Both the position numbers and the translations under genes were made by a program. Below, piece by piece: positions 59,072-63,445 of a DNA stretch of 64,000 nucleotides. Under the pieces are notes generated by a model. It searched no databases and had not been told where the DNA came from. It worked only from the letters and a program-made list of their open reading frames with translations. The stretch's first letter is position 1. Every line of letters starts with the position of its first letter. This DNA is from Deltaproteobacteria bacterium (lineage in GTDB: Bacteria > Desulfobacterota > Binatia > Binatales > Binataceae), in contig JAJYRQ010000004.1 of NCBI GenBank assembly GCA_021794015.1, positions 1 through 64,000 of the forward strand, given 5' to 3'.

Positions 59072-60532
59072 CTAGAGGTTGAAGACGACCAGCCGTTCCT
59101 CGGTCATCTCTCGAACGGCGCGGCCGGGGCCTTCGCGCCCTTGCCCGCTCTCCTTGACGCCGCCGTAGGGAAGCTGGTCGGTGCGCCAAGTCGAGGTGCC
59201 GTTGACGATAATGCCGCCGACCCGAAGCGAGCGGACGGCGCGCAGCGCCAGGTCCAGCCGGTTGGTGAAGATACCGCAGTGCAGCCCGTAGCGCCCGGCG
59301 TTGATTAGCTCGAAGACCCGGTCGAGGTCTTCATAGCGCTGCACGGTGACCACCGGGCCGAAGATTTCCTCGCACACCACGCGCATCGAGGGCTCAACCT
59401 CGGCAAGCACCGTCGGATCGTACCGGGTGCCGTGGCGCCGGCCGCCGGTGAGCAGCTTGGCGCCGGCGCCAAGCGCCTCATCGACCCACTGCTCGACCCG
59501 GCGGGCGGCGGCCTCGTCGATGAGGGTGCCGACGTCGGTTTCGGGGTCGAGCGGGTCGCCCGGCTTAAGCTTGCGCACCTCGTCGACCAGGCGCGCAACG
59601 AACTGGTCGTAGAGCCGGGCATGGACGTAAAGGTTTTGCACCGAGATGCAGCTTTGACCGGCAAGCCGCATCGCGTTGCGGGCGCATAGCGGGGCGCTGG
59701 CGTCGACCGAGGCGTCGGCATGGACGATGGTCGGTCCGTTGCCGCCCAGCTCAAGCGCCACGCGGCGCATCCCGCAGGCCGCTTTGATCTCGGCGCCGAC
59801 GCGGCTTGAGCCGGTAAAGCTGATGAAGTTGACGCGCGGGTCGCGCACCAGCGCCGGGCCAACCGTTTTGCCGTAAAGCACCCCGAGAAAACCCGCAGGC
59901 AGCCCCGCCGCGAAGAAGAGTTCGCCGAGCTTGCTGACCGACCAGGGTGCCTGCGGCGGCGCCTTCAGCACGACGGTGTTGCCCGCGGCAATGGCGGGAG
60001 CGACCTTGTGGCAGGCCAGATTGAAGGGCGCGTTGAAGGGCGTGATGCCGGCCACCACGCCCACCGGGAAGCGCAGCAGCAGCGCCAGCTTGCCCGCGCC
60101 CATCGGGGCGCCGTCCAGCGGAACGTGCTCGCCCTGGATGCGGATCGCCTCCTCTGCCGAGAGCATGACGGTCTCCTGAGAGCGGGCGACTTCGGCGCGG
60201 GCGTCTTTGATCGCCTTGCCGGTTTCGCGCGCGATGATGACGGCGATTTCCTCGCTGCGCGCGGCGAGCAGCTCGCCCACGCGGCGCAAAAGGGCGGCGC
60301 GCCGGTACCCCGGCAGCGCCGCGGCTTCGGCCTTCGCCTTGGCGGCCGCGCCCAGCGCGTCGTCGAGGTCTTGCAGCGATGATTCGGGCGCGCGCGCAAC
60401 CACCTCGCCACGGTAGGGATCGATTACGTCGTAAAGAATCTTGCCGGCGCGCCGGGCCCCCGCGATGAGCATATCGATTCGAGCCGGTTCGGCCTGCCTT
60501 GTGCCGGCCGTTACGCTTTGCGCTTGACTCAT
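59072..60532 (-). CDS. NAD(P)-dependent aldehyde dehydrogenase
   Basis: A 486-residue ALDH-superfamily member. The catalytic cysteine is in AGQSCISVQNLYV, the glutamate in ALELGGNGP, and the N-terminal FNAPFNLACHKVAPAIAAGNTVVLK binds the cofactor. The C-terminal GRYGLHCGIFTNRLDLALRA and PYGGVKESGQGREG are typical. It most resembles succinate-semialdehyde or lactaldehyde dehydrogenases; the substrate is uncertain. Confidence 0.92.
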   Translation of the reverse strand: MSQAQSVTAGTRQAEPARIDMLIAGARRAGKILYDVIDPYRGEVVARAPESSLQDLDDALGAAAKAKAEAAALPGYRRAALLRRVGELLAARSEEIAVIIARETGKAIKDARAEVARSQETVMLSAEEAIRIQGEHVPLDGAPMGAGKLALLLRFPVGVVAGITPFNAPFNLACHKVAPAIAAGNTVVLKAPPQAPWSVSKLGELFFAAGLPAGFLGVLYGKTVGPALVRDPRVNFISFTGSSRVGAEIKAACGMRRVALELGGNGPTIVHADASVDASAPLCARNAMRLAGQSCISVQNLYVHARLYDQFVARLVDEVRKLKPGDPLDPETDVGTLIDEAAARRVEQWVDEALGAGAKLLTGGRRHGTRYDPTVLAEVEPSMRVVCEEIFGPVVTVQRYEDLDRVFELINAGRYGLHCGIFTNRLDLALRAVRSLRVGGIIVNGTSTWRTDQLPYGGVKESGQGREGPGRAVREMTEERLVVFNL

Positions 60533-60863: not shown

Positions 60864-61070
60864 GTGGCTGAGGACCGCATATTGACGGTCAAAGAGCTGT
60901 CCGAGTACCTGCGGGTCCATCCGACGACGATCTACAGGCTGCTCAAACAGGAACGCCTGCCGGGATTCAGAGTGGCCAGCGGCTGGCGTTTCAGCCGTGC
61001 GGCTATCGAGCGGTGGGAGCGCGAGCAGGCGGAAAAGAGGGCCTTGCGGGACGAGGAAGACAAAGGCTAA
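60864..61070 (+). CDS. Excisionase/MerR-type helix-turn-helix protein
   Basis: A GTG-started, 68-residue protein made of one winged HTH (LTVKELSEYLRVHPTTIYRLLKQERLPGFRVASGWRFSRAAIERW, given here as the whole domain in outline: the recognition helix is HPTTIYRLL). This is the HTH_17/excisionase-type domain found in small regulators and phage excisionases. No phage or integrase gene is nearby. It lies 422 bases upstream of the MerB-like selenoprotein gene on the same strand, so it could regulate that locus. Confidence 0.85.
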   Translation: MAEDRILTVKELSEYLRVHPTTIYRLLKQERLPGFRVASGWRFSRAAIERWEREQAEKRALRDEEDKG

Positions 61071-61492: not shown

Positions 61493-62173
61493 GTGGCGGA
61501 TATGGCGTTGCTCGACCGAGGATTCGCGGCAATCATCCGGCGCTTCGTCGAAACCGGGCAGGGCCCCCACTACACGGAGTTGGCGCAGGAATTGGGCCTG
61601 TCGGTGGAGCAGGGGCGAGAGTTGGTTCACGAGCTGTTCGCGCGCAATGTTCCGGGCTGGGTGCATCCGGGCACCGACCTGATCGCCTCGTTTGCGCCGT
61701 TCAACAACCTGCCTACCCAGTATCGCGTGAGCGTCGACGGCCACCAGAAGTGGTTCGCCCAGTGAGGGTTTGAGGCGCTGGCGGTCCGCTGGCTATTTCC
61801 CGGCAAGAAAGTTCGAATCGACGCGCCGTGCCTGGAGTGCGGGGAGCCGATGGCGCTCGAGATGCGCGACGACCGAATTCTGTTGACGCAGCCGGACACG
61901 ATGGTGGGTTACACCCACAGTCCCGTCGGCGGGCCGCGCGAGACGATCGCCTTTCGCTGAGGGGGCATGAATCTCTTCCGGTCGGAAGAGCACGCGCGCC
62001 AGTGGAAGGGTTTTAAGCCGGAGATGGAGAAAACGCTGCGGCCGGTCTCTTTCTGGGCCGAGCTTTTCAGCGAGCAGTTGTTTCGCCAACGCGGGCGGGC
62101 CGACTACATGTCCTGGCTGAGGTCTGAGGAAGGCCGGCAGTCGCTGGCGAGCTTGTGGGCGAAGATGCCGTAA
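61493..62173 (+). CDS. MerB-like organomercurial lyase with two selenocysteines (in-frame TGA at 61763 and 61958)
   Basis: Ordinary translation stops at 61763 and 61958, but the frame continues past both TGAs to TAA at 62171, giving 226 residues from GTG 61493 (GGAG lies 7 bases upstream); MerB has about 212. The N-terminal helical part (HYTELAQELGLSVEQGRELV) and core match the alkylmercury lyase family. The first TGA (residue 91) sits in WFAQ-U-GFEALAV, aligned with the catalytic Cys96 of MerB (YAWCALD type); MerB Asp99 is Glu94. The second TGA (residue 156) sits in AFR-U-GGMNLFRSEEHARQW, aligned with Cys159 in the MerB C...FFAS.EAA..W motif. Cys113 matches structural Cys117. Each TGA has a hairpin 18-19 bases downstream. 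It probably cleaves carbon-mercury bonds, or a related organometal bond, using selenols. Confidence 0.88.
61763..61793 (+). promoter_or_regulatory. Putative bacterial SECIS element 1 (MerB-like Sec91)
   Basis: After the TGA at 61763-61765, gctggcg (61777-61783) pairs with cgctggc (61787-61793) through seven pairs (two are G-U). The apical loop is gtc, starting 18 bases after the TGA. A G at the start of a short apical loop at this distance is what SelB recognition of bacterial SECIS elements requires. Confidence 0.8.
61958..61990 (+). promoter_or_regulatory. Putative bacterial SECIS element 2 (MerB-like Sec156)
   Basis: After the TGA at 61958-61960, ctcttcc (61973-61979) pairs perfectly with ggaagag (61984-61990). 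The loop is ggtc, beginning 19 bases after the TGA. The loop matches the GGTC found in the fdhF SECIS loop of Escherichia coli. Confidence 0.85.
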
Positions 62174-62273: not shown

Positions 62274-63164
62274 ATGCCGAGCGATTACGTCCGCTACATC
62301 GATAAGACGCGCGATTATTACCTGGCCGAGGGTTACAAGGAGCCGTACCGCTGGGCGCATTTCGAGGAGATCCCGTTTACCCGGCTTAGCAAGCCGCTTA
62401 GGCGCTGCCGCCTGACCATCGTAACGACCAGTGACATCGCGGTTCGCAGCGAATCGGGCGGCCGCGAGAGCGTCGACAAGGACACCCTGGTCGGACGCAT
62501 CTACTCGATTCCGTTTGACGTAGCGGCCGAGCGCCTTTACAGCCGCAACGAGCATTACGACCAGCACGCGACCAGTCTTGACGACGTCAACGCCTATTGT
62601 CCGGTGGACCGGGTAAGAGAACTGGCCGCCACGGGACGGATCGGCGGTTTTGCGCCGCGTTTTCATGCGGCCTACACTTCTTACAGCCAGCGGATCACCA
62701 TGGAGCGCGATGCGCCGGAAGTGCTGCGGCGATGCCGGGAGGACGAGGTCGATGCGGTGCTGCTGACACCTGTCTGACCCGTCTGCCATCAGACCGTCGG
62801 TCTGATAGCGCGTCATCTGGAAGCTAACGGTATTGCGACCGTGGTTTTCGGCACGGCCCGCGACATTGTGGAAAGCGTTGGTGTGCCTCGTTTCATTTTC
62901 ACCGACTTTCCCTTGGGCAATCCGTGCGGCCGGCCGTTCGACGCTACGATGCAGCGTGCGATCGTTGAAACCGGCCTTGAGCTGCTCGAGAAGGCCACGG
63001 CTGTTGCACCAACCGTGACCACGCCCTACGTCTGGAGCGACGACGATTCGTGGAAACGGCTCATCTTCAGTAAGGAACAGCCTTTTCTGGAGGGCGAGGC
63101 CTACCGCCGCTGGATGGAGGCCAAGGAAAAGTACCGGCAGCTCAAGCGCGAGGGCCAGGTTTGA
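62274..63164 (+). CDS. GrdB-like selenoprotein with a UPVC motif (in-frame TGA at 62775)
   Basis: Reading through the TGA at 62775-62777 joins two open stretches into one 296-residue protein from ATG 62274 (AGGAG 8 bases upstream). It belongs to the glycine/sarcosine/betaine reductase selenoprotein B-like family: FSH-type region (YSRNEHYDQHATSLDDVN), GRIGGFAPRFHAAY, and a Rossmann-like end with TDFPLGNPCGRP. The TGA codes for residue 168 in LLTPV-U-PVCHQTVG, giving a U-x-x-C redox pair (Sec168, Cys171). It lies 100 bases after the MerB-like gene. Family members are thiol/selenol oxidoreductases; GrdB itself cleaves C-N bonds. Its substrate here is unknown. Confidence 0.88.
62775..62806 (+). 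promoter_or_regulatory. Putative bacterial SECIS element 3 (GrdB-like Sec168)
   Basis: After the TGA at 62775-62777, atcagacc (62788-62795) pairs perfectly with ggtctgat (62799-62806). The loop is gtc, starting 18 bases after the TGA, the same loop and distance as element 1. Confidence 0.88.
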
Positions 63165-63208: not shown

Positions 63209-63445
63209 ATGGCGCGAAACGTGGTGGTCTATTCGACCCCGCTCTGCGCTCCGTGCGAGCACCTCAAGCAGTATCTGCGCAGCCGAGGGGTCTCGTTCGT
63301 TGTGCGCGATATCATGATGGACGAAGAGGCGGCGATCTTCCTCGAGGACCGGGGGATTAGGTCTACGCCGGTTCTGGCGGTTGACGACGCGCTGGTCGTC
63401 GGTTTCGACCGCAAGCGCGTGGACGAGCTTTTGGGGCTCGCCTAA
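63209..63445 (+). CDS. Glutaredoxin-like protein (CAPC)
   Basis: Start at ATG 63209, giving 78 residues; an upstream TTG at 63161 would add a poor leader. VVVYSTPLCAPCEHLKQYLRS holds the active site CAPC (Cys13, Cys16), and STPVLAVDDALVVGFD is the cis-proline and C-terminal part of the glutaredoxin/NrdH fold. It follows the GrdB-like gene by 44 bases and probably reduces selenenylsulfide or disulfide bonds formed by the upstream selenoproteins. Confidence 0.88.
   Translation: MARNVVVYSTPLCAPCEHLKQYLRSRGVSFVVRDIMMDEEAAIFLEDRGIRSTPVLAVDDALVVGFDRKRVDELLGLA

Follow-up and report, generated by a model that had tools for sequence, protein, structure and literature searches.

The stretch of DNA analyzed here, referred to as the window, comprises positions 1-64,000 of contig JAJYRQ010000004.1 (GCA_021794015.1), and all coordinates refer to its + strand unless stated otherwise. 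It contains, at 61493..62173, a gene for a protein of 226 residues resembling the organomercurial lyase MerB, which begins with a GTG at 61493, ends with a TAA stop at 62171-62173 and is open in between apart from two TGA codons, codon 91 (61763..61765) and codon 156 (61958..61960). Both are predicted to encode selenocysteine (Sec) and occupy the positions of the MerB residues Cys96 and Cys159, respectively. A sequence-only reading of the window had claimed these two TGAs and no further interruption of the frame, and this agrees with what is found: its motifs FAQ-U-GFE and U-GGMNLFRSEEHARQW match the sequence as written, the TGAs are 65 residues apart compared to 63 in MerB (159-96), and the residue at the position of Asp99, residue 94 (61772..61774), is a Glu. 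The position of MerB Cys117 is taken by Cys113 (61829..61831), which is followed by Cys116 (61838-61840), and the start residue is common to many homologues.

The conservation of both codons was studied at the DNA level in the best 80 of the 104 loci confirmed in a genome scan. TGA156, Glu94 and Cys113 are present in 80 of 80 loci and Cys116 in 62, while codon 91 is either TGA (TGA/TGA at codons 91/156, 46 loci) or Cys (Cys/TGA, 34 loci), a ratio that is no estimate of prevalence, because one of the two scan patterns was unable to match TGA91. The spacing between both positions is 65 in 75 of the 80 loci, and two frames (L103 and L107) terminate before residue 200. A scan of 57 related genomes gave a match in ten of them: the genome of the window, in which no second match was found, two genomes whose match has one TGA, and seven whose match has none. 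The latter seven, Cys-only MerB-like proteins from the same class (L005-L011), possess Cys, Glu, Cys and Cys at positions 91, 94, 113 and 156 in every case. They share 28-32% identity with the window protein, lack TGA and have a different C-terminus; with a Cys-Glu-Cys triad and a CxCC motif, they too lie outside the canonical MerB signature. The homologues with Cys or Sec at these positions that the sequence-only reading suggested looking for thus exist, with Cys91 in 34 of the 80 loci and Cys156 in the protein record P0094 and in L005-L011. On a tree of 81 rows (the 80 loci and the window) that was built without columns 91 and 156, at least six changes between Cys and Sec are required. The rows comprise Thermodesulfobacteriota (22), Actinomycetota (19), Myxococcota (10, following NCBI's reading of titles with "Deltaproteobacteria"), Chloroflexota (10), Rokuibacteriota (9), Pseudomonadota (3), Hydrogenedentota (1), Poribacteria (1) and six ungrouped ones including the window, and single labels among these may be binning errors, as the record titles name metagenome-assembled genomes.

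A protein search at E <= 0.001 yielded 680 homologues. Of the 120 that were listed, 89 have Cys and 31 have Trp at residue 91; position 156 is a gap in 88 (mostly proteins of 154-155 residues), Trp in 31 and Cys in one (P0094), with Trp at both positions in 30. The Trp residues probably represent TGA translated with genetic code 4, and the short forms are probably gene calls cut at TGA156. The public records (P0003-P0122) contain the family mostly as pieces of 154-155 residues, a few of them named organomercurial lyase, or with Trp at both Sec positions. On plasmids, six records with 25-28% identity were found, none with 80% query coverage. Trp at both places in a quarter of the listed homologues, as expected from a call with table 4, might suggest a genome-wide reassignment of TGA, and a pseudogene or a sequencing error, the latter already considered in the sequence-only reading, would be related explanations. 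We regard all of these as hardly credible: the identical pair of TGAs recurs in 46 of the 80 fetched loci across many separate assemblies, all 80 loci lack a further TGA before residue 200, all 34 loci read as DNA that do not have TGA at codon 91 have Cys there and not Trp, and no stop codon is used more often in the window than TGA (29 of 52 rough open reading frames, ORFs, the internal TGA of the neighboring PrdB-like frame included).

Both TGAs are followed by hairpins that resemble a selenocysteine insertion sequence (SECIS), the first at 61777..61793 with seven pairs and a GUC loop, the second at 61973..61990 with seven pairs and a GGUC loop. With the register held fixed, all pairs are formed in 45 of the 46 TGA91 loci, in 13 of the 34 Cys91 loci and in 74 of the 80 loci at TGA156, compared to 41 and 19 of the 14,664 positions that served as controls within these genes. 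Unrestrained folds gave 40/46 for TGA91, 12/34 for Cys91 and 73/79 for TGA156 versus 111/954 controls. The wobble bases of the second hairpin hardly vary: in the 46 two-TGA loci, the mean entropy of third bases 3' of codon 156 is 0.35 bit (7 columns) as opposed to 1.25 bit in 57 other columns. Downstream of codon 91 it is 0.93 bit versus 1.25 bit elsewhere in the two-TGA loci, and 0.99 versus 1.08 bit in the Cys91 loci. As judged by shuffled sequences, the codon-156 hairpin has a z-score of -2.10 and the hairpin of the neighboring PrdB-like gene one of -2.41, whereas the codon-91 hairpin is no better than the shuffles (z +1.27); it is remarkable across loci, though not by its energy alone. The stem at codon 91 is partly dictated by the conserved peptide, since Cys91 loci show it too. 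The window's nearest relatives, L030 and L031, combine Cys91 with TGA156 and have retained the codon-91 hairpin, which there looks like a relic of TGA91 after a recent change from Sec to Cys, or like a stand-by for a return. These relatives and the unremarkable energy would also fit a situation in which TGA156 alone is read as Sec and TGA91 is the protein end or a lesion in the window's genome. As TGA91 is found in 46 of the 80 loci, with the hairpin register kept in all except one of these and the frame conserved downstream, such a situation seems very improbable to us. The Rfam SECIS models gave no match at E <= 5.

The genome to which the window belongs contains selA, selB, selD with one TGA, and a tRNA-Sec (68.5 bits), so that the search for selA, selB, selC and selD suggested in the sequence-only reading had a positive outcome; two weaker matches above the 47-bit score may represent different tRNAs with a long arm. 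The selD of this genome (contig C17) is itself a predicted selenoprotein gene and adjoins selB. Among the host genomes searched, which represent 50 of the 80 loci, 46 have selB above cut-off, and the genome of L030 (G011/G057) has two full-length selB matches above cut-off. The TGAs and their conservation, the exchange of Cys and Sec, the hairpins and the Sec genes can be read from the DNA itself, and an in-frame TGA with a conserved frame beyond it, downstream hairpins, Cys homologues and a complete selA/selB/selC/selD set are the marks of a bacterial selenoprotein, all found for the MerB-like gene, whose product is predicted to be one.

The protein obtained by reading through both TGAs matches the Pfam MerB family PF03243 with 67.9 bits (gathering cut-off 27), which places it in the MerB superfamily, and it is predicted to adopt the MerB fold. 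With characterized MerB proteins (R831b MerB; MerB2, PDB 5c17) it would share this fold, the positions of the Cys96/Asp99/Cys159 triad and the position of Cys117. Instead of the canonical signature Cys96/Asp99/Cys159/Cys117, the window protein has predicted Sec/Glu/Sec/Cys, with Sec at both catalytic positions and Glu in place of Asp99 (where MerB2 has Ser), and its identity to MerB is only about 20%. The equivalence of codon 156 and Cys159 derives from the MerB2 alignment and from the ungapped reading.

Selenolates have a lower pKa and a stronger affinity for mercury than thiolates, which would favor capture of the metal, and few biological ligands bind mercury as strongly as selenium. We think, with a probability of roughly 0.6, that the two TGAs with their conserved hairpins are read as Sec at the catalytic cysteine positions of the predicted MerB fold, and that the selenolate pair together with Glu94 likely cuts a carbon-mercury bond or a similar carbon-metal bond. 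By analogy with MerB, Sec91 and Sec156 would bind R-Hg+, and Glu94 would take the part of Asp99 by passing on the proton that releases the hydrocarbon. The Hg(II) would then stay between the two selenolates until thiols take over, for which a glutaredoxin, small thiols, or MerA where present may serve as acceptors, the glutaredoxin type being a guess. In MerB, Cys96, Asp99 and Cys159 form the mercury-holding active site, a proton assists the release of methane, and Hg(II) exits via thiol exchange (PMC4525700). The weakest step in the proposed mechanism is the substrate, for which methylmercury is the first choice and another organometal possible.

Several observations weigh against this reading, in addition to the energy of the codon-91 hairpin and the weak freezing of wobble bases behind codon 91. 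The read-through protein misses the curated NCBIfam cut-offs for MerB (30.7 of 193 and 25.2 of 200 bits) and the one for SaoL (NF040728, 37.5 of 140 bits), Asp99 is replaced in all 80 loci, and the canonical MerB profile alignment has a gap at 156 and places Cys159 on residue 155. Four of the 50 host genomes (L040, L061, L067 and L105, all drafts, with a contig-edge piece in the L067 genome) have no selB above cut-off. Moreover, 50 of the 57 relatives have it as well, so that the hosts show no clear enrichment and selB is necessary, not telling. Finally, no mer operon was found around the gene, no mer neighborhood recurs among the neighbors examined, and only four out of 50 other host genomes gave a MerA above cut-off, with the best 25 candidates scored for most of these 50. 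From the di-selenocysteine organomercurial lyase proposed in the sequence-only reading, the predicted fold, the TGAs at the Cys96 and Cys159 positions and Glu94 thus stand, whereas the identity as a lyase does not follow.

The window's own genome does have MerA above cut-off; as this holds for so few of the other hosts, mercury is the leading and not a proven substrate. This MerA lies at a separate mercury locus (L119:2975-7049, contig C59), on another contig than the MerB-like gene, together with a sigma-factor-like gene and, about 2 kb away, a MerT/HMA-like frame named from sequence. A serious, if minority, possibility is that both Sec residues are real and the target is something else, such as an organoarsenic, organotin, organoselenium or metal-thiolate compound, or that the protein merely binds soft metals. 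The rarity of MerA in the hosts, the invariable Glu and neighbors unrelated to mercury (acyl-CoA enzymes, molybdate transport, FAD oxidases) would fit this, as would the naming of the MerB-like selenoprotein SaoL for unspecified organometals in its catalogue entry (PMC13188914). The triad and Cys117 positions kept over a MerB fold, and the MerA of the window's genome, speak for mercury instead.

Building on the mercury reading, one may tentatively imagine a branch of organomercurial lyases that depend on selenium, largely do without MerA and have a Sec-Glu-Sec site, and that occur in sulfate reducers, syntrophs, SAR202-type Chloroflexi and others (Cys-Glu-Sec in Acidimicrobiia and Rokubacteria). 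Some of the methylmercury demethylation in sediments and the deep sea that still lacks an explanation might be due to this branch, which might have been missed because gene callers cut at the TGA or misread it and because a mercury-gene survey required Cys96/Asp99/Cys159; we consider this whole scenario doubtful. If both Sec residues hold a metal, a single enzyme would link the selenium and mercury cycles, methylmercury breakdown in bacteria that lack MerA would have a candidate open to testing, and the database annotation of the family would be corrected. The natural pairs with Cys91 and Sec91 permit a direct comparison of what selenium contributes.

MerB-like selenoproteins as such are already known. 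A 2026 catalogue of 119 selenoprotein families or subfamilies has, in its available part, SaoL with one Sec as its only MerB-like entry (PMC13188914), and the alkylmercury lyase MerB-like selenoprotein in the accessible part of PMC9312934 has an accession identical to that entry. Like the window protein, SaoL of the SAO system is a MerB-like selenoprotein, and its model matches all 22 family members scanned at E <= 0.001. Unlike the window protein, whose two Sec residues do not adjoin a Cys, it has a single Sec in a CU motif (PMC13188914, Table 1), and the window protein scores below the cut-off of the SaoL model, a comparison based on this model and the catalogue entry. The model of MbdU (NF045648), one of the two-Sec metal proteins of the catalogue, was not among the matches at E <= 1. 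A survey of mer genes screened for Cys96, Asp99, Cys159 and Cys117, and it likewise deals with MerB-fold variants outside the canonical signature, with no class with Glu99 or Sec named in its available part (PMC8261052). The main text of PMC2398784 contains neither "MerB" nor "alkylmercury", and that of PMC12013277 does not contain "MerB". A MerB with two Sec was not found in a literature search over titles and the beginnings of abstracts, whose scope left out the primary SaoL and newer selenoprotein-neighborhood papers, where a mention is possible. If both Sec residues hold metal, the window protein would be, as far as searched, the first protein of the MerB fold whose metal site has two selenolates.

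Downstream of the MerB-like gene, at 62274..63164, lies a GrdB/PrdB-like gene with its own TGA at codon 168 (62775-62777) in the motif UPVCHQT, followed by a hairpin at 62788-62806 with eight pairs and a GUC loop. Its best model is PrdB (TIGR04483) with 105 bits at a cut-off of 300, and because no NCBIfam cut-off is reached it is perhaps a new GrdB/PrdB branch. The GrdB-like frame next door that had been claimed as a selenoprotein gene is thus present, but it is no regular partner: a tblastn search (E <= 1e-5) of flanks of up to 6 kb found PrdB-like genes at 2 of 80 loci (L031 and L063, with the same TGA) and the glutaredoxin at 1 of 80. The latter is a glutaredoxin-like protein at 63209..63445 with a CAPC motif and no internal TGA (GlrX_YruB, 67.3 bits, cut-off 88.55; the scanned piece started one codon before 63209). 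Named from sequence are a helix-turn-helix gene near the MerB-like gene (60864-61070), an aldehyde-dehydrogenase-like gene on the - strand (59072-60532) and a downstream acyl-CoA dehydrogenase on the + strand. Clustering of ORFs in the flanks was overwhelmed by spurious ORFs. A home-made gene caller gave 81 co-directional neighbors, and the 77 that were scanned with Pfam (one gene each of L056 and L099 and two of L110 were left out) showed no dominant family among the 25 commonest of 102. Molybdate-transport genes lie downstream at L041 and ABC-transport genes at other Chloroflexi loci, which is taken for a clade effect. On the opposite strand, two ORFs of 133 and 150 amino acids overlap the MerB-like gene.
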